Below the pieces are notes generated by a model. That model was not told the DNA's origin. It made no database searches and saw nothing but the letters and a program-made list of their open reading frames with translations. The translations under genes and the position numbers were made by a program. Of a stretch of DNA of 21,581 bases, positions 15,292 through 21,581 are shown piece after piece (positions within the stretch are counted from its first letter, which is position 1; the number at the start of each line of letters is the position of its first letter). The DNA comes from a virus: IMG/VR virus record IMGVR_UViG_3300031612_000089, positions 1 through 21,581 of that record; one strand, written 5' to 3'.

Positions 15292-15443
15292 TGAAAAAGA
15301 ATCCGACACTTGTTAAAAACATGCCTCATGTTAAAACTAACCTTATCCCACCACTTAAAGGACCTGATCCACAAGGGATCACAGCGCCTCTTGAACCTAA
15401 AAGATTTAAAACAATACTTACTGTTTCAAAACCAAAGACTTAA
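15291..15443 (+). CDS. Small proline-rich protein (50 aa)
   Basis: Starts at the stop of the previous gene (TAATG). MKKNPTLVKNMPHVKTNLIP continues with several prolines (PPLKGPDPQGITAPLEPKR), so it is probably extended rather than globular. It ends 4 nt inside the convergent terminase small subunit gene. Function unknown; tail-to-tail overlap means the two messages are antisense to each other at their ends. Confidence 0.6.
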   Translation: MKKNPTLVKNMPHVKTNLIPPLKGPDPQGITAPLEPKRFKTILTVSKPKT

Positions 15444-15946
15444 TTTAGTTTTTTTATGTTTTTGGGTGTTGCAGATACCTCTGCTGGTATGTCTGTTGAT
15501 GTACCTTCTATAATATCTTTGTGGTCTTTTAAGATATCTTTCATTCTCAACTCTATTTCTTCTTCTGATAAGTTATCTAAACTTCCAGTCATGATTAATT
15601 TTTGATCTACGTATAACCCACCTGCCTTACCACGTGCAACTTCAGCATTGATTGCCGCTGACCAAGCACCTTTTTTTGTGGCTTCATCTCTAAGTTTAGA
15701 TAGTTCCTGTAAATGTCTTTCAAATGTAATTCCGTATTTCTCCTGCACCTCTGCTCTAAGTTCACCAATGTATCTAACAACTAAAGGTGACTTCTTTGCA
15801 CTTCTTAATTCACTTGCCGCTTGTCTAGGTCTAGTTTTATATCCTGCTTCCATAGCACACTCGGCTGGTGACATACGTCCTTCATTATAAACTAGCAACT
15901 CTGCAAATTTAATCTGACGTTCTGTTAATTTAGCTGGTACACCCAT
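15440..15946 (-). CDS. terS: Terminase small subunit (TerS)
   Basis: A 168-residue protein from the ATG at 15946. KLTERQIKFAELLVYN followed by PAECAMEAGYKT is the Terminase_2-type helix-turn-helix region (DNA recognition for packaging). The ASELRSAKKSPLVVRYIGEL helix follows, then a helical oligomerisation part (YGITFERHLQELSKL) and an acidic C-terminal tail (EEEIELRMKDILKDHKD). TerS selects phage DNA and passes it to TerL. The frame extends 42 codons upstream, but that extension overlaps an opposite-strand lipoprotein gene and a promoter, so MGVPAKLTERQ is preferred. There is no ribosome binding site before it, and the promoter predicts RNA starting at the ATG. TerL is on the other strand about 4.2 kb away. 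Confidence 0.88.
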   Translation of the reverse strand: MGVPAKLTERQIKFAELLVYNEGRMSPAECAMEAGYKTRPRQAASELRSAKKSPLVVRYIGELRAEVQEKYGITFERHLQELSKLRDEATKKGAWSAAINAEVARGKAGGLYVDQKLIMTGSLDNLSEEEIELRMKDILKDHKDIIEGTSTDIPAEVSATPKNIKKLN

Positions 15947-15949
15947 AGG

Positions 15950-15982
15950 TTGACTTATAACGTAACTTGCCGTACAAGTCAA
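15950..15982 (-). promoter_or_regulatory. terS promoter within a TTGACTT/AAGTCAA inverted repeat
   Basis: On the minus strand TTGACT (15982-15977), a 17-nt spacer and TATAAG (15959-15954) form a good sigma70-type promoter for terS. TTGACTT (15950-15956) and AAGTCAA (15976-15982) are a 7-bp inverted repeat that could be an operator. The predicted RNA start falls at about 15947, next to the terS ATG, implying a leaderless message. Confidence 0.6.
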
Positions 15983-15986
15983 ACAG

Positions 15987-16112
15987 ATGAGAATAATTCT
16001 AATATTAGTATTTATAACGGTTTCTGGGTGTGCTAAAGATTTAGACTTCAATCCATATACCACAATAATCAAACAAATTTACAAGGCTTCGTACGATGAA
16101 AAAGGAAAGTGA
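15987..16112 (+). CDS. Small lipoprotein (41 aa)
   Basis: MRIILILVFITVSGCAKDLD is a classical short lipoprotein signal: a basic N-terminus, hydrophobic core and a VSGC lipobox with Cys15. The mature part would be only 27 residues. A lipoprotein this small recalls outer-membrane spanins (Rz1-like) and other envelope lipoproteins, but no spanin-specific proline content is visible. It is divergent from terS and overlaps the nuclease gene by 17 nt. The ribosome binding site is weak. Confidence 0.55.
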   Translation: MRIILILVFITVSGCAKDLDFNPYTTIIKQIYKASYDEKGK

Positions 16113-16485
16113 TCTCTGGAAATTATTAAAGAAAAACACACCTGAAATCAAGTGGACAAGGTTGGAATCATGGGCGTCTTTTGGAGTACCGGATGTGCTC
16201 GGTTATCATGATTCATGCGGATTCTTCTTAGTAGAATTAAAATTAGTAAAGAAATTAAAACAGAAAAAAATAAGCCTAAGTCCTCATCAAATCCTGTTTC
16301 ACTCAACCATGACAAAGCGTAATTTCATCTTGGTCGGACTATCACAGGACGCCGGGCCTGTGTCCATAAAACTTTATGGAAGTTCATCGGTCCTCGGTCT
16401 GCTTGATGACTACCGCGAGGTCCCACCGCTGGCCGTCGATGACTGGGGCCACATCAATGCGCTTCTGCTCGCGAACCGCTCGTGA
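16096..16485 (+). CDS. VRR-NUC/Holliday-junction-resolvase-like nuclease
   Basis: A 129-residue PD-(D/E)XK-type nuclease. LESWASFGVPDVLGYH (23-38) carries the D33 of the motif, FFLVELKLVKK (43-53) the ExK pair (E47, K49), and LSPHQILFH (61-69) the usual glutamine. VRR-NUC and phage resolvase-like enzymes share this layout and cut branched DNA during recombination or packaging. Its position beside terS fits debranching of packaging substrates (inference). From about base 16340 the gene becomes GC-rich, so its last 45 codons differ in composition from the first part. The stop codon lies inside repeat copy A. Confidence 0.85.
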   Translation: MKKESDLWKLLKKNTPEIKWTRLESWASFGVPDVLGYHDSCGFFLVELKLVKKLKQKKISLSPHQILFHSTMTKRNFILVGLSQDAGPVSIKLYGSSSVLGLLDDYREVPPLAVDDWGHINALLLANRS

Positions 16486-16505
16486 CCTTCGGGCCCACCC
16501 TCCCT
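16478..16505 (+). repeat. 28-nt GC-rich repeat, copy A
   Basis: GCTCGTG-ACCTT-CGGGCCCACCCTCCCT, one of four nearly identical copies in the same orientation (A 16478, B 17313, C 17826, D 20028). This copy covers the stop codon of the nuclease gene. On the minus strand, together with the adjoining C-run, it has four or more runs of three or more G (GGGGGGAGAGGGAGGGTGGG), so a G-quadruplex is possible. Confidence 0.85.
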
Positions 16506-16514
16506 CTCCCCCCA

Positions 16515-16556
16515 GCTCGCTCGCTCGCTGCTCGCTCGCTCTCTTGCTTGCTCGCT
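16515..16556 (+). repeat. GCTC tetranucleotide tract
   Basis: A run of GCTC units with slight breaks, directly after repeat A. A shorter version (17346-17364) follows repeat B. Such tracts are prone to slippage and could vary in length between related genomes. No ORF with support crosses it. Confidence 0.85.
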
Positions 16557-16570
16557 AACTACTCTTAAAT

Positions 16571-16611
16571 TAAAAAAAAACGGCGCACGCCAGCAGCTTG
16601 CGCTGCTGGCC
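16571..16611 (-). terminator. Intrinsic terminator for the GP88-like gene
   Basis: On the minus strand, 31 nt after the stop of the GP88-like gene, GCCAGCAGC pairs with GCTGCTGGC (16610-16602 and 16597-16589) around a GCAA tetraloop. A small GGCGTGCGCC stretch follows, then nine T (complement of 16572-16580). This is a strong rho-independent terminator. Confidence 0.75.
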
Positions 16612-16641
16612 ATGGCCTTCTCTTCGGAGTGAAAAGTTTGT

Positions 16642-17241
16642 TTAGTGTTTACCATAACTAATATTTTTAATGTCTTTATTCCAGCAAGCTCGACAGTCTA
16701 AGCACTTGCCTCCCTGGCTGCCGGATGGGCATGTCTCGGATTTATCTGTAACAACCGTTGAAGTGTGCTCCCACGCTTTAGGCGCTGCGCCGTCAACCTT
16801 AGCTCCGGATAACCTGATGATCATGTTAGCTGGGACCGCTGCAGGATCTGGCAAGTATGGCCGCTCCTGTGTTGGCATCCAGTGCTGCGTGTCCGGCGTG
16901 AGTCTTGCGACTTCTAAAATTTTCGCCATGTGTTCGTGTGACTGTACATCGCCGGCGTCGTGCCATCTAAAAAACTTTTGCCTGATCACCTGTGCGACCA
17001 TGGCCGCGATCCAGCGCTGGTCCTCTAATGATTTTAATCTTACATATTGCGCTGCCTTGATAGCTGGATAACGTGTATAGTTTCCCTTCAGGGCATAACA
17101 ACCAAAACACGGTGAGGTTGGAACCTTCCTGAGCTTCGCGCCTGTTTGGCACTCCCACGCTGGCAGGCTATAACTTAAGCCTGGCATTTTTGACGTCCGG
17201 GTCATAGACCCGGTAATTGCTTTTGCTTCTTTTACTTTCAT
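16642..17241 (-). CDS. GP88-family phage protein
   Basis: A 199-residue protein resembling the phage gene-product-88 family (mycobacteriophage gp88-like). Key features: PGLSYSLPAWEC (20-31), a CFGCYALKGNY motif (45-55), FRWHDAGDVQSHEHM (91-105), and a C-terminal CPSGSQGGKCLDC plus RACW (C171, C180, C183, C186) ending KNISYGKH. The cysteines suggest a metal or iron-sulfur centre; activity is not established. It is GC-rich, in contrast to the AT-rich genome, and stands alone on the minus strand with its own promoter (17291-17264) and terminator. GGAG lies 6 nt before the ATG, in a GGAGTGA context shared with the genes at 18007, 19097 and 19693. Confidence 0.8.
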   Translation of the reverse strand: MKVKEAKAITGSMTRTSKMPGLSYSLPAWECQTGAKLRKVPTSPCFGCYALKGNYTRYPAIKAAQYVRLKSLEDQRWIAAMVAQVIRQKFFRWHDAGDVQSHEHMAKILEVARLTPDTQHWMPTQERPYLPDPAAVPANMIIRLSGAKVDGAAPKAWEHTSTVVTDKSETCPSGSQGGKCLDCRACWNKDIKNISYGKH

Positions 17242-17263
17242 TTCTCACTCCTTGGTTAACTAC

Positions 17264-17291
17264 TATATAATCCCATATTAATATATGTCAA
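17264..17291 (-). promoter_or_regulatory. Promoter P1 of the GP88-like gene
   Basis: On the minus strand TTGACA (17291-17286), a 16-nt spacer and TATATA (17269-17264). The spacer contains ATATGGGAT, the same box found at four other promoters. The A/T-rich 21 nt upstream, between it and repeat B, could serve as an UP element. Confidence 0.8.
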
Positions 17292-17312
17292 GTACTAAAT
17301 TTTTTTAATTAA

Positions 17313-17339
17313 GCTCGTGCCCTTCGGGCCCACCCTCCC
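17313..17339 (+). repeat. 28-nt GC-rich repeat, copy B
   Basis: GCTCGTG-CCCTT-CGGGCCCACCCTCCC, here running into more C and then CTGGG. It lies 21 nt upstream of the -35 box of P1. On the minus strand four G-runs (GGGGGGAGGGTGGGCC, then CGAAGGG) meet the standard G-quadruplex pattern. A GCTC tract follows at 17346-17364. Confidence 0.85.
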
Positions 17340-17345
17340 CCCTGG

Positions 17346-17364
17346 GCTTGCTCGCTCGCTCGCT
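17346..17364 (+). repeat. Short GCTC tract after repeat B
   Basis: GCTTGCTCGCTCGCTCGCT, matching the longer tract at 16515-16556. The fact that copies A and B share this tail, while C and D share a TATAAA tail instead, defines two subtypes of the 28-nt repeat. Confidence 0.8.
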
Positions 17365-17369
17365 ATCTA

Positions 17370-17770
17370 TTTTTATTTATATTCATATCACCGGCGGCGC
17401 TCGATGATCAGTCGACTCAGCGCTGCCAGCGGCCATCCCACACCTCCCCTTGCGGATCAACGGTTGTCGTACAGAGGTCCAGCGCGAAGCTGACATGGAC
17501 GCAGAGATTAGCATCATTAGGAGAACCTTCTTAGGCGGGTAGTACTTAACTAGTATTTAACTACTATCCGTAAAGCCAATTTACTCTCGACCTAAAATAT
17601 AGGGTTTTGGTTATTACCCAGGTTCACCAAATAATCCGGATCAGTAGTAGGTACAACTGATTTGAAACCTACTAAAGCTCCAGCGAGTGATTGACAAAGT
17701 TAACGACCGGAAATCACTCCAACGAGGTCATAGTTTGATCAGAGGTAGTTTAACTTAACATGACAATACT
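17370..17770 (-). ncRNA. Putative structured non-coding RNA (unknown class)
   Basis: This stretch of about 400 nt has no supported ORF but has a strong minus-strand promoter in front (P2, predicted RNA start near 17770). It contains perfect or near-perfect hairpins: GAGTGATT (17685-17692) with AATCACTC (17712-17719); TAGTAGGT (17645-17652) with ACCTACTA (17667-17674); and a 14-bp imperfect stem, 17536-17549 with 17557-17570. The left third (to about 17520) is GC-rich, the right part AT-rich. I see no tRNA, tmRNA, RNase P or group I intron hallmark. A 42-codon ORF (17514-17386) after AGAAGG exists but is doubtful. The left end of the RNA is a guess. Confidence 0.5.
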
Positions 17771-17776
17771 AAAATC

Positions 17777-17804
17777 AATATAAGACTTTATGGGAATATG
17801 TCAA
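17777..17804 (-). promoter_or_regulatory. Promoter P2 reading into the non-coding region
   Basis: On the minus strand TTGACA (17804-17799), 16-nt spacer, TATATT (17782-17777). The spacer carries TATTCCCATA. Repeat copy C starts 21 nt upstream of the -35, the same distance as repeat B from P1. Since no gene follows within 500 nt on this strand, it is the main evidence for an RNA gene. Confidence 0.78.
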
Positions 17805-17825
17805 GCGCTTATTTTATTTTATTAA

Positions 17826-17853
17826 GCTCGTGGCCTTCGGGCCCACCCTCCCT
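17826..17853 (+). repeat. 28-nt GC-rich repeat, copy C
   Basis: GCTCGTG-GCCTT-CGGGCCCACCCTCCCT followed by ATATAAA. Within it GTGGCC and GGCCCAC can pair around a TTCG tetraloop with one bulge. It sits between the divergent promoters P2 and P3 and shares the preceding ATTAA with copy B. Confidence 0.85.
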
Positions 17854-17866
17854 ATATAAAAAAATT

Positions 17867-17912
17867 CAACCTCAGGTTGTATCAACTATAAGTTGAATTT
17901 AGAATAATTCTA
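17867..17912. repeat. Three tandem small palindromes
   Basis: CAACC-TCA-GGTTG (17867-17879), CAACT-ATA-AGTTG (17883-17895) and TAGAAT-A-ATTCTA (17900-17912) follow each other directly upstream of promoter P3. They may be binding sites for a dimeric regulator or transcript hairpins. The remainder of 17854-17944 is AT-rich and otherwise featureless. Confidence 0.6.
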
Positions 17913-17944
17913 AACTAACCCAGCTTTTTATTTTCTTTTTTTAT

Positions 17945-17972
17945 TTGACAATAATAACCATTAATGTATATT
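17945..17972 (+). promoter_or_regulatory. Promoter P3
   Basis: TTGACA (17945-17950), 16-nt spacer, TATATT (17967-17972), followed at once by CCCATATTAAC. The leader contains TAACTTAACAAAT (17980-17992), repeated exactly in the leader of the gene at 19693, then AGGAGTGA as ribosome binding site. Confidence 0.82.
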
Positions 17973-18006
17973 CCCATATTAACTTAACAAATAAATAGGA
18001 GTGAAA

Positions 18007-19023
18007 ATGCCAGACAAAAAAAATAGAATAAGACTTAACCAAGAATACAGAAACAAGATAGCCAAGAGAATAGAACTTGGACTTGACCAAGAAAATACTA
18101 TTGAGAAAGAAAAGTATTTACAGCTTAGAGAACAAATCAAACCCTTGCAAGATAAGGCATGGGATTTAATGTATAAGATAGGTAGAGAGAATTATCCACA
18201 AGCTGATGTAGATATGGCATGGCACTTGCAAAAAAAATATGACAATGTCAACACCATAGCACCTGACAGTTGTTTTCATGTTGCATATGAAACCATAAGA
18301 ACTGAGGACAAACTTGATTACAATGGTAATGTCAAAGAGGCTAAAGGTCAACCAATGGAAGTTGAGGAACACTTTGATTTCAAAGTTGATGGTAGTGTTG
18401 AGAGTGGTAGCAATTCAAGATCAAGTGGTAATAAGTTTGCTTATGCTTATTTTAGAGATGAGTTAAAAGCACAACCAGATTGTAATCCTGACATCAATAT
18501 AATGATGAAAGATAAGGACAGCAATAATCCATATCAAAGAAAAATAACTGAGGCTAATGATAAATACTTAGGCATTGGACATGACAGCAGTAGCAATCAC
18601 ACAAGCTATCAAGCTGAGTGGGACAAAGATTATTCTATGGACTTGATTGGTAGAGAATATTGTAGAGATAGACAGTTGATAACTACTGCTGAAAACTATG
18701 CTGAGTTATTATTTTGGAAAAACCAGAAAGCACAATTTGTAATTGCTCACGAACAATGGGTAGAGAGTATTCAAAACCAAATGAGTGAAATCAAATTAGG
18801 ACTTAAAGGATATAAATATCTTGATGAGGCTTTGGAACTTGCTACTGAACTTGGTTTAACAATTCAAGATAGTGAGATCATAAGAACTGATAGCACAGGC
18901 TTAACAATCTTCAATCCTAAAAATCTTGCTGATAGAATTAAAAGCATGAAAAACAAAGTTAAGCAAACTAGAGAGGAAAAAATAGCCATAGCTAAACTAC
19001 AACAATCACAAGCTATAAATTAA
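18007..19023 (+). CDS. Hypothetical protein of the accessory module (338 aa)
   Basis: The largest gene of the accessory region. ATG at 18007 is preferred over GTG at 18001 because GGAGTGA is the shared ribosome-binding context of the module. The protein is polar and mostly helical: N-terminal K/R-rich helices (NRIRLNQEYRNKIAKRIELG), a central S/N-rich segment (DGSVESGSNSRSSGNKFAY), an aromatic-rich part (YSMDLIGREYCRDR) and a C-terminal K-rich helix (NKVKQTREEKIAIAKLQQ). No catalytic or membrane motif is visible and I do not recognise a family. It has its own promoter, P3, and no terminator before P4, which starts 7 nt after its stop. Confidence 0.78.
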   Translation: MPDKKNRIRLNQEYRNKIAKRIELGLDQENTIEKEKYLQLREQIKPLQDKAWDLMYKIGRENYPQADVDMAWHLQKKYDNVNTIAPDSCFHVAYETIRTEDKLDYNGNVKEAKGQPMEVEEHFDFKVDGSVESGSNSRSSGNKFAYAYFRDELKAQPDCNPDINIMMKDKDSNNPYQRKITEANDKYLGIGHDSSSNHTSYQAEWDKDYSMDLIGREYCRDRQLITTAENYAELLFWKNQKAQFVIAHEQWVESIQNQMSEIKLGLKGYKYLDEALELATELGLTIQDSEIIRTDSTGLTIFNPKNLADRIKSMKNKVKQTREEKIAIAKLQQSQAIN

Positions 19024-19030
19024 TATAGGC

Positions 19031-19058
19031 TTGACTATGTATGGGGTTAGTATATAAT
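19031..19058 (+). promoter_or_regulatory. Promoter P4
   Basis: TTGACT (19031-19036), 16-nt spacer, TATAAT (19053-19058). TATGGGG in the spacer and ATCCCATA after it form an imperfect inverted repeat around the -10. It drives the genes at 19097 and 19288. Confidence 0.8.
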
Positions 19059-19096
19059 CCCATACATAATAACAACTAACATAGGAGTGAGAACCG

Positions 19097-19288
19097 ATGG
19101 AACTAAATAAAACTTTTAGAATAACTTATTATTCTAATAAAGATAAATGCCACATAACTAGAAACGCAAAATGGACAGACCTTAGTAGATACTTTACTAG
19201 CAAGGTTGGTGCTAGTCTGATGACATACTTTGATATGGATAAGCAAGGGTACAGAACTGCCAAAGGCAGTTGGACAGTGAGGTTTTAA
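19097..19288 (+). CDS. Small hypothetical protein (63 aa)
   Basis: MELNKTFRITYYSNKDKCHI continues as a compact, beta-looking, aromatic and basic protein ending GYRTAKGSWTVRF. GGAG lies 9 nt before the ATG in the shared GGAGTGA context. It overlaps the next gene by one base (TAATG), so the two are co-translated. A small DNA- or RNA-binding protein is possible by charge; function unknown. Confidence 0.72.
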   Translation: MELNKTFRITYYSNKDKCHITRNAKWTDLSRYFTSKVGASLMTYFDMDKQGYRTAKGSWTVRF

Positions 19289-19626
19289 TGAAATATTGCC
19301 AAGGTACTAAGTGCCATACATACGACACCTCTGATAGAAAGAGAGGTGTCAAGGGTAGCAAAACAAACCAGACCAGAAAGAGAACTAGCTTTGAGTATGG
19401 TCATGGAGATTTTTGCACCTTACAATGTCAGAACGATTGGTTCAGAACTCATGGAAATAATGCTGTCACTCACTTTGGTAGAGTGACAAGCCCTATTATA
19501 TTGACAGAGGATAATGCGTGGCAACGTCAATACAATTATAACTATTGGGAGAACAGAGATACTCAAGATCGAATGGTGGAACGCAACACTGTCACTGGTG
19601 CTGAACGACCATGCAGCCAAGATTAG
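19288..19626 (+). CDS. Zinc-finger-like hypothetical protein (112 aa)
   Basis: Starts at the TAATG overlap. Cysteines occur as YCQGTKCHTY near the N-terminus and FCTLQCQNDWF about 45 residues later, the CxxxxC...CxxxC-W/F layout of a treble-clef zinc finger. In between is a basic linker (RKRGVKGSKTNQTRKRTS) likely to touch nucleic acid. The C-terminal half is N/Y/R-rich (QRQYNYNYWENRDTQDRM). Its stop is two bases before the next -35 box. Function unknown; nucleic-acid binding is inferred. Confidence 0.72.
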   Translation: MKYCQGTKCHTYDTSDRKRGVKGSKTNQTRKRTSFEYGHGDFCTLQCQNDWFRTHGNNAVTHFGRVTSPIILTEDNAWQRQYNYNYWENRDTQDRMVERNTVTGAERPCSQD

Positions 19627-19628
19627 AT

Positions 19629-19656
19629 TTGACAAGTGTATGGGATAGTATATTAT
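19629..19656 (+). promoter_or_regulatory. Promoter P5 with perfect operator palindrome
   Basis: TTGACA (19629-19634), 16-nt spacer, TATTAT (19651-19656). TATGGGATA (19639-19647) and TATCCCATA (19654-19662) are a perfect 9-bp inverted repeat overlapping the -10, the clearest operator candidate in the window. Confidence 0.85.
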
Positions 19657-19692
19657 CCCATACATACTAACTTAACAAATGGAGTGAACACA

Positions 19693-19950
19693 ATGCAAAT
19701 AGAATACAAAGGAACTACTTACACAATACCGAAACCCTTTGATCAAGCCTTTATGGGTGACAATCCTATCAAGGAACTTAACATCATGAACCCTTACAGC
19801 AATGATAGTGCAACACTACCCGCGTTTGCTGTTGCAGTTTATGACACGATTAAAGGTGCTGAACTAACAGAAGATTACGACATAGTTAGACAGGGTATCA
19901 ACTGGTTCCAAAAGAACTTCACTCAACAATATATGGTGCTGTTAGACTAG
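19693..19950 (+). CDS. Small conserved-looking hypothetical protein (85 aa)
   Basis: ATG at 19693 follows GGAG by 8 nt; in-frame ATGs upstream lie in the promoter. MQIEYKGTTYTIPKPFDQAF begins the protein; the second half (NPYSNDSATLPAFAVAVYD and a C-terminal FTQQYMVLLD) has the look of a compact helical domain. I have an impression of similar small proteins in cyanophages but cannot confirm it. It is followed by a strong hairpin at 19960. Function unknown. Confidence 0.75.
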   Translation: MQIEYKGTTYTIPKPFDQAFMGDNPIKELNIMNPYSNDSATLPAFAVAVYDTIKGAELTEDYDIVRQGINWFQKNFTQQYMVLLD

Positions 19951-19959
19951 CACCAACGA

Positions 19960-19982
19960 GGGCTAAGCCTACGGCTTAGCCC
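19960..19982 (+). terminator. Strong hairpin after the last accessory gene
   Basis: GGGCTAAGCC (19960-19969) pairs perfectly with GGCTTAGCCC (19973-19982) around TAC, 9 nt after the stop at 19950. Only TT follows, so it is a terminator-like or RNA-end-stabilising hairpin rather than a textbook intrinsic terminator. Confidence 0.7.
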
Positions 19983-20027
19983 TTACAATCCTACATCAAT
20001 AGAGGTACCAACAACTTCTGGTTGTAT

Positions 20028-20055
20028 GCTCGTGAACTACGGGCCCACCCTCCCT
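20028..20055 (+). repeat. 28-nt GC-rich repeat, copy D
   Basis: GCTCGTG-AACTA-CGGGCCCACCCTCCCT followed by GTATAAA. It is the most divergent copy (loses the TTCG) and marks the right border of the accessory region, between the hairpin at 19960 and the terL promoter. The rest of 19983-20092 holds no gene. Confidence 0.83.
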
Positions 20056-20126: not shown

Positions 20127-20177
20127 ATGAGAAAAAATAAGGTGTTAAAAAAATATTACAAAAAAATTTATGGATGA
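20127..20177 (+). CDS. Possible 16-residue leader peptide before terL
   Basis: ATG at 20127 opens a 16-codon frame, MRKNKVLKKYYKKIYG, whose stop (TGA 20175-20177) overlaps the terL start region by 8 nt. It lies at the predicted RNA start, so it would be leaderless, and terL itself has no ribosome binding site, so translation of terL could be coupled to this peptide. It is strongly basic. Existence is uncertain because such short frames arise by chance in A-rich DNA. Confidence 0.3.
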   Translation: MRKNKVLKKYYKKIYG

Positions 20178-21581
20178 AGACAAAATAAACAGGCTTCCGC
20201 CTGACGTTAAGAAACAGTTTCTTAAGCTTGGCTTAAAATTATCTGAAAAAAAAAATAAGAAAAAAATACATGATGATTTTCTTACCTTTGTAAAACATGT
20301 TTGGCCTGAGTTTATTGAAGGTGCACATCATAAAAAAATTGCAGAAAAATTTAACGACATAGCAAATAAAAAAATTAAAAGATTAATTATAAATATGCCA
20401 CCTAGACATACTAAGTCTGAGTTTGCATCTTTCTTACTTCCTGCCTGGATGGTAGGTCGTAAACCTGATTTAAAAATTATTCAATCGACTCACACAACAG
20501 AACTCGCGATCCGCTTTGGTCGAAAAGCTAAGACCTTAATGGATTCCCCTGAATACAAACAAGTCTTTGAGACTAGACTAAGAGAAGACTCGCAAGCCGC
20601 GGGCAAATGGGAAACTGAGCAAGGTGGTGAATATTATGCAGCTGGTGTTGGCTCTGCCATAACGGGACGTGGAGCGGACTTACTTATTATCGATGATCCT
20701 CACTCTGAGCAAGATGCTTTGAATATGACATCAATGGAACGTGCTTATGAATGGTACACATCAGGACCCCGACAAAGACTACAGCCGGGCGGAACGATTG
20801 TTGTGGTTATGACTAGATGGAATATGAAAGATCTAACTGGAATGTTACTTAAGAATCAAAAAGGATTAAAAACTGACCAATGGGAACTGATAGAATTTCC
20901 AGCCATACTACCATCGGGTAAATCTGTTTGGCCTGAGTATTGGGAAATAGGAGAATTAGAAACTGTTAAAGCATCGTTGAGCGTGGGTAAGTGGAACGCC
21001 CAATGGATGCAAAACCCAACGTCTGAAGAAGGCTCATTAATTAAAAGAGAATGGTGGCGAAAATGGGATAGGGACTATATTCCAAAATTACAACATGTCA
21101 TACAATCTTATGATACAGCTTTCTTAAAAAAAGAAACTGCCGATTACTCTGCTATTACAACGTGGGGTGTATTTCAAGAATCTATAGATTCTGCTCCAAA
21201 CCTAATGTTACTGGATGCAGTAAAAGAAAGATTAGAGTTTCCAGAACTACGTAAGAAGGCTAAAGAACAGTATGACTATTGGAAACCAGAAACGGTAATC
21301 ATCGAGGCTAAAGCATCTGGATTACCTTTAACTTATGAGTTGCGTAAAATGGGCATACCTGTTATAAACTTTACTCCTAGCAAAGGTAACGATAAACATG
21401 CTAGAGTTAACGCTGTGTCACCTCTCTTTGAGAGTGGACAAATTTGGGCGCCGGACGAAAAGTTCGCAGAAGAAGTTATAGAAGAGTGTGCATCATTTCC
21501 TTATGGCGATCATGATGATTTGGTGGATAGTATGACACAAGCGGTAATGAGATTCCGTCAAGGCGGATTCGTTGGTCATCC
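20170..21581 (+). CDS. terL: Terminase large subunit (partial, 3' end cut)
   Basis: ATG at 20170 opens a frame that continues to the window edge (470 codons). The N-terminal ATPase has a variant Walker A, MPPRHTKSEF (76-85), and Walker B LLIIDDPHSEQ (D175, D176). The TRWNMKDLTGM segment follows. The C-terminal RNase H-like nuclease has SYDTAF (D315), VIIEAKASG (E379) and GDHDDLVDSM (D449, D450). This is the phage packaging motor: it hydrolyses ATP to translocate DNA into the capsid and cuts the concatemer. The Walker A with R-H-T-K-S is usual in this TerL group. Few residues should be missing. It is on the opposite strand from terS. Confidence 0.96.
   Translation, partial: MDEDKINRLPPDVKKQFLKLGLKLSEKKNKKKIHDDFLTFVKHVWPEFIEGAHHKKIAEKFNDIANKKIKRLIINMPPRHTKSEFASFLLPAWMVGRKPDLKIIQSTHTTELAIRFGRKAKTLMDSPEYKQVFETRLREDSQAAGKWETEQGGEYYAAGVGSAITGRGADLLIIDDPHSEQDALNMTSMERAYEWYTSGPRQRLQPGGTIVVVMTRWNMKDLTGMLLKNQKGLKTDQWELIEFPAILPSGKSVWPEYWEIGELETVKASLSVGKWNAQWMQNPTSEEGSLIKREWWRKWDRDYIPKLQHVIQSYDTAFLKKETADYSAITTWGVFQESIDSAPNLMLLDAVKERLEFPELRKKAKEQYDYWKPETVIIEAKASGLPLTYELRKMGIPVINFTPSKGNDKHARVNAVSPLFESGQIWAPDEKFAEEVIEECASFPYGDHDDLVDSMTQAVMRFRQGGFVGH

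Follow-up and report, generated by a model that had tools for sequence, protein, structure and literature searches.

A directly repeated 27-nt sequence as a probable border of exchangeable gene cassettes upstream of terL in pelagiphages

Why should a phage carry one short sequence four times, always in the same orientation, between the genes for its two terminase subunits? The question is posed by a 21,581-nt viral DNA (IMG/VR record IMGVR_UViG_3300031612_000089, positions 1 to 21,581; this whole stretch is referred to as the window), which contains four exact copies of GCTCGTG-N5-CGGGCCCACCCTCCC, all on the + strand:

16478..16504, + strand: border repeat copy A, exact match, at the convergent orf129/GP88 junction
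17313..17339, + strand: border repeat copy B, exact match, between GP88 and a stretch free of open reading frames (ORFs), upstream of the GP88 promoter
17826..17852, + strand: border repeat copy C, exact match, at the divergent junction of the RNA slot and the four-gene slot
20028..20054, + strand: border repeat copy D, exact match, immediately upstream of terL

The unit is 27 nt long, and not 28 nt as given in an earlier, sequence-only reading of this DNA; the four same-orientation copies reported there are borne out by these exact matches, which are absent from shuffled sequence (100 dinucleotide shuffles; chance expectation, none). A search of the window and of the remainder of the record at up to three mismatches yielded no further copy. 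The last codons of orf129 run into copy A, with the TGA stop falling inside GCTCGTGA. GCTC repeats ~10 nt after copies A and B, and copies C and D are followed by TATATAAA and TGTATAAA, respectively, in agreement with the earlier description of the tails as alike within each of these pairs.

We consider it probable (roughly 0.58) that the repeat is the oriented border of cassettes arrayed between orf129 and terL, a fixed site, and most likely serves as a short homology linker. The sequence is not private to this genome, as a scan of IMG/VR identified relatives carrying it (20 stretches with a strict pattern, at least 120 with a looser one). No exact match was present among 84,980 prokaryote genomes, and a literature search for the repeat sequence returned no match. 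TerL relatives belong to Pelagibacter phages HTVC027P (76% identity) and HTVC023P (62%), and to phage 023Pt_psg01 (82% over 93% of the protein); from this kinship we infer that the window derives from an HTVC027P/023P-type phage of SAR11. The SAR11 single-cell genome AG-404-L13 also contains such a phage, on a 62-kb contig (L291).

Position and strand were examined in 280 related loci totaling 2.07 Mb, with terL or orf129 setting the orientation, by a scan with a relaxed version of the repeat. The scan returned 514 copies, 512 of which are on the + strand and, without exception, within the orf129..terL interval; the remaining two are weak, chance-level matches. Copies are confined to a single strand in each of 30 long records, and the complete 59.8-kb 023Pt_psg01 has all of its five copies between terS and terL. 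Among copies from loci found by protein searches, a selection independent of the repeat itself, the 27 repeat columns are strongly conserved and the flanking columns are near background. Random placement inside genes, against which the sequence-only reading had set its border proposal, is not seen, with 201 of 204 copies located between ORFs. All junction types are represented (convergent, 62; divergent, 58; ++, 58; −−, 25). IMG/VR contigs end close to a repeat (within about 150 bp) several-fold more often than expected from length, at no fixed position; this excess may reflect population-level variation.

The genes between copies differ among relatives, as the sequence-only reading had proposed for exchangeable cassettes. 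The set includes 67 non-redundant complete regions, with up to six copies per genome; the 51 regions with at least two copies fall into 44 architectures, and adjacent copies enclose 40 different contents. The last slot before terL is occupied by o340-o63-o112-o85, by a family labeled F5 here, by h082, or by small minus-strand genes, and the TerL tree requires at least 18 changes of occupant (minimum possible, 4; mean of shuffles, 33). The window and L138, for example, have 93% identical TerL proteins and different last slots, and a 1009-bp block is 99.7% identical between L005 and L114, the terL genes of which are 82.5% identical. Relatives in which only 255–335 bp separate orf129 and terL have no repeat.

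Homology between relatives also tends to end at the repeat. Random positions served as the comparison for where homology blocks end, with pair counts that share sequences. At ≥95% identity, the 16 bp following the repeat contain 17 right block ends (1.5 expected), and at ≥97% they contain 9 (0.5 expected). Left block ends are enriched upstream, 17–87 bp from the left edge of the repeat (30 against 8). Removal of shared sequences leaves about five independent cases, small-scale replacements included.

In the mechanism that we propose, the slots are independent units, often with a promoter of their own; the GP88 gene comes first, a larger gene block last, and small genes or an RNA in between. 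Each unit would carry one repeat copy at its right end. Co-infecting phages would recombine at the shared border sequence, and whole transcription units would be swapped, gained or lost with neighboring genes left intact. The common orientation would follow from the behavior of crossovers between direct repeats, which exchange or delete units and never invert them.

Several observations weigh against this interpretation. Slot order hardly varies, and versions of the repeat particular to one junction are passed on, so exchange does not amount to free shuffling, and copies within a genome are barely more alike than copies from different genomes. A passive linker would be expected elsewhere in the genome too, but the repeat is confined to the packaging region, and even distant phages share the core bases GGGCCCACCC, a conservation suggestive of a bound factor. 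Two of the five edge cases (L117/L123 and L005/L114) are short replacements, after which identity resumes. Pairs in which a unit flanked by two copies corresponds to a single copy (L225/L239, L237/L228, and L051/L044) were set aside as evidence, since three cases are not clearly above chance. No crossover was observed, and that step is one we infer. Of the earlier proposal of a border or recombination site, the border is upheld by the differing contents, and recombination at the repeat has indirect support from block ends at its right edge.

The repeat is not the only sequence found at these junctions. L138–L140 and L214 have CATATTCCTGTTCNCGGGCGGGCCCACCCC-type repeats at equivalent positions, in which the left half is swapped and GGGCCCACCC is retained. 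In HTVC027P and others, arrays of GCTYGNN heptamers replace the 27-mer; 87 are on the + strand and none on the − strand, all within orf129..terL. Heptamers in L289 continue in phase into the GGGCCCACCC core, connecting the heptamer and 27-mer forms. The anchor proteins do not follow these changes. Among close phages, TerS, orf129, and TerL are about equally similar whether the 27-mer or the swapped left half is present, the TerS DNA-binding region is near-identical across all three forms, and the same repeat also accompanies a TerS of 34% identity. Co-variation of the TerS DNA-binding domain with repeat type was tested and not seen. This constancy makes recognition by TerS less likely and is in line with a sequence that need only resemble its other copies, for which change without any change in the packaging proteins is expected.

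The same data bear on the proposal that the repeats are cos- or pac-type sites bound or cut by terminase, with genes accumulating where DNA ends form. Repeats are found only beside terS and terL, always directed toward terL and usually with a copy immediately upstream of it, and whether the GGGCCCACCC core is present broadly tracks TerL clade; in a cyanophage, mispackaging has been put forward as a cause of spontaneous gene gain and loss (PMC4503421). Set beside the near-constant TerS region, the TerS of 34% identity with an unchanged repeat, the presence of up to six copies per genome, and contig ends that are commoner near repeats yet take no fixed position, such a role appears unlikely. A TerS recognition site was rejected because TerS is unchanged across repeat types, and fixed genome ends were judged unlikely because contig ends do not gather at one base. 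A transcriptional function, as an insulator, terminator or promoter-upstream site separating cassette units, is about as unlikely. At B- and C-type junctions the repeat is commonly ~26 bp from the −35 box of a unit with its own promoter, and promoters are placed as at GP88/copy B in 20 of 25 tandem (−−) junctions. RNA sequencing of HTVC027P placed gp33, the GP88 homolog, and gp34 in their own expression cluster (PMC12753301), which agrees with slots as independent units. However, all four junction types are used, no copy turns up at the remaining junctions of the genome, and nothing promoter-like beyond background occurs within 140–160 bp of copy-A-type repeats; the recurring insulator offered by the sequence-only reading is not supported on these grounds, nor is a hairpin kept. 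Among 177 distinct 27-mers, two of three stem pairs are formed in 72–75% and the next two inward in 10–25%. An intrinsic terminator or RNA hairpin was accordingly rejected, divergent junctions being as frequent as convergent ones, as was a promoter element, given that copy A has none nearby. A minus-strand G-quadruplex was rejected by reading the sequence, as most copies have only three G runs and the tail is lost in the swapped-left-half form.

Two further explanations invoke an enzyme. GCTYG-type repeats might direct a tracking enzyme, as Chi-like signals or as sites for a phage nuclease (orf129, for instance), and make the region a recombination hotspot, in keeping with the complete strand bias of the 27-mer and of the heptamer arrays, the nuclease-like gene adjoining copy A, and the GCTYGNN units common to both forms. 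We regard this as very unlikely: orf129 is constant whatever the repeat type, and heptamer arrays in AG-404-L13 occur only on the phage contig, with none elsewhere in 1.2 Mb. Their absence from the rest of this genome excludes a host-wide Chi, and a host-derived or Chi-like identity was rejected for this reason and for want of an exact match in the prokaryote genomes. It is also tempting to speculate, although the odds are poor, that the strand-locked heptamers, bare or capped by GGGCCCACCC, are sites of a dedicated pelagiphage cassette-capture system, in which the candidate enzyme orf129 would cut or resolve DNA and units would enter or be exchanged next to the packaging genes in one orientation, integron-like but lacking an integrase.

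The short homology linker remains the preferred reading, and the genes and signals that it would border in the window are as follows:

15440..16072, − strand: terS, terminase small subunit, left anchor (phrog_51, E 1.3e-9)
16096..16485, + strand: orf129, probable PD-(D/E)XK nuclease (phrog_2165, E 2e-11), conserved left neighbor of copy A
16642..17241, − strand: slot 1, GP88-family gene (Pfam PF17338, E 1.7e-28), homolog of HTVC027P gp33
17263..17291, − strand: sigma70-like GP88 promoter TTGACA/TATATA, identified from sequence, ~20 bp left of copy B
17390..17512, − strand: slot 2, probable relative of Flavobacterium-1 RNA (RF02976), full-length weak match
17778..17804, − strand: promoter-like site TTGACA into the RNA slot, identified from sequence, ~20 bp left of copy C
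17945..17972, + strand: sigma70-like promoter of the four-gene slot, TTGACA-16-TATATT, identified from sequence
18013..19023, + strand: slot 3 gene o340, an ORF with same-slot homologs, homolog of HTVC027P gp35
19097..19288, + strand: slot 3 gene o63, an ORF with same-slot homologs
19288..19626, + strand: slot 3 gene o112, an ORF with same-slot homologs
19693..19950, + strand: slot 3 gene o85, an ORF with same-slot homologs
20170..21581, + strand: terL, terminase large subunit, right anchor, running past the window end (phrog_38, E 6e-106; 76% identical to HTVC027P TerL)

The gene content is as described in the sequence-only reading, which overlooked orf129 between terS and copy A and the RNA-family match of the ORF-free stretch. 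An invariant D...ELK...SPHQ in the orf129 alignment suggests that the protein is probably a PD-(D/E)XK nuclease; its other matches are a Holliday junction resolvase family (phrog_5702, E 0.011) and, weakly, the nuclease 4qbo (E 0.23). Family searches with the four + strand ORFs of slot 3 gave no convincing assignment, and no cassette gene matched in a search of defense families.

Slot 2 probably holds a relative of Flavobacterium-1 RNA. The match to RF02976 scores 32.1 bits (E 0.012 for the whole window, E 3e-4 for the slot alone), below the gathering score of 58.9, and is for this reason described as a probable relative only. The syntenic slot of HTVC027P (L130 8754–8874, − strand) matches the same family above the gathering score (90.2 bits, E 4e-16), and the two matches are identical in slot and strand. 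Elsewhere, L201 (positions 1–1300) and also L161, L163, and L198 contain multiple copies of an RNA-like unit bounded by ACTTGACCCCAGATC and GATCAGGGCTCAAG upstream of terL, for which an Rfam search gave no match at the gathering score.

A second conserved element precedes terL. AGGGGTCC occurs 189 times at 600 bp or less from terL in relatives, mostly 100–210 bp upstream; AGAGGTACC is found before terL in 34, mostly phages that have no repeat. The window has both within ~170 bp upstream of terL, near 20003 and 20069. Palindromes such as TATGGGATAGTATATTATCCCATA occur in cassette promoters (window 19639–19662). Before copy D, in L057, L084, L117, and L129, similar flanks surround a palindrome that differs among phages (GGGTATGGGATTAATCCCATACCC or GTGTGTAGGCTGTAGCCTACACAC) and is possibly an operator of changing specificity. 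A search for TATCCCATA operators across the window found no excess.

SAR11 are the most abundant ocean bacteria, and their phages are among the most abundant viruses known. Gene gain in these phages has mostly been described with no named junction; here the junction is named and can easily be searched for, and it shows where accessory genes and an RNA plug in at one fixed site. The repeat enables exchangeable genes to be cataloged, exchange to be measured in population reads, and passive homology to be tested against sites read by a protein.

Related arrangements are known from other systems. The boundary or linker sequences of lambdoid phages are short and conserved and flank exchangeable genes, but usually differ from junction to junction, whereas the pelagiphage repeat is a single family at all junctions of one region. 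Integron cassettes are separated by direct copies of one oriented site, attC. The pelagiphage repeat, in contrast, has no conserved folded palindrome, and its slots have their own promoters, genes in both directions, and a near-fixed order; no search for an integrase was made. The PeSLs of T4-type phages are mobile promoter/early stem-loop cassettes (Arbiol 2010, Comeau 2014, as cited in PMC4503421). They too are short repeated sequences between genes of a plastic region, with modular shuffling proposed, but each is a composite of promoter and terminator stem-loop, neither of which is found in the pelagiphage repeat, with its single strand and single site. The 17-bp repeats of Cluster O mycobacteriophages such as Corndog are similarly numerous and near-identical, and where two copies flank a segment, relatives with one copy lack it (PMC4351075). 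In contrast to the oriented repeat described here, they are palindromic, unoriented, and spread genome-wide, partly inside genes (PMC4351075).

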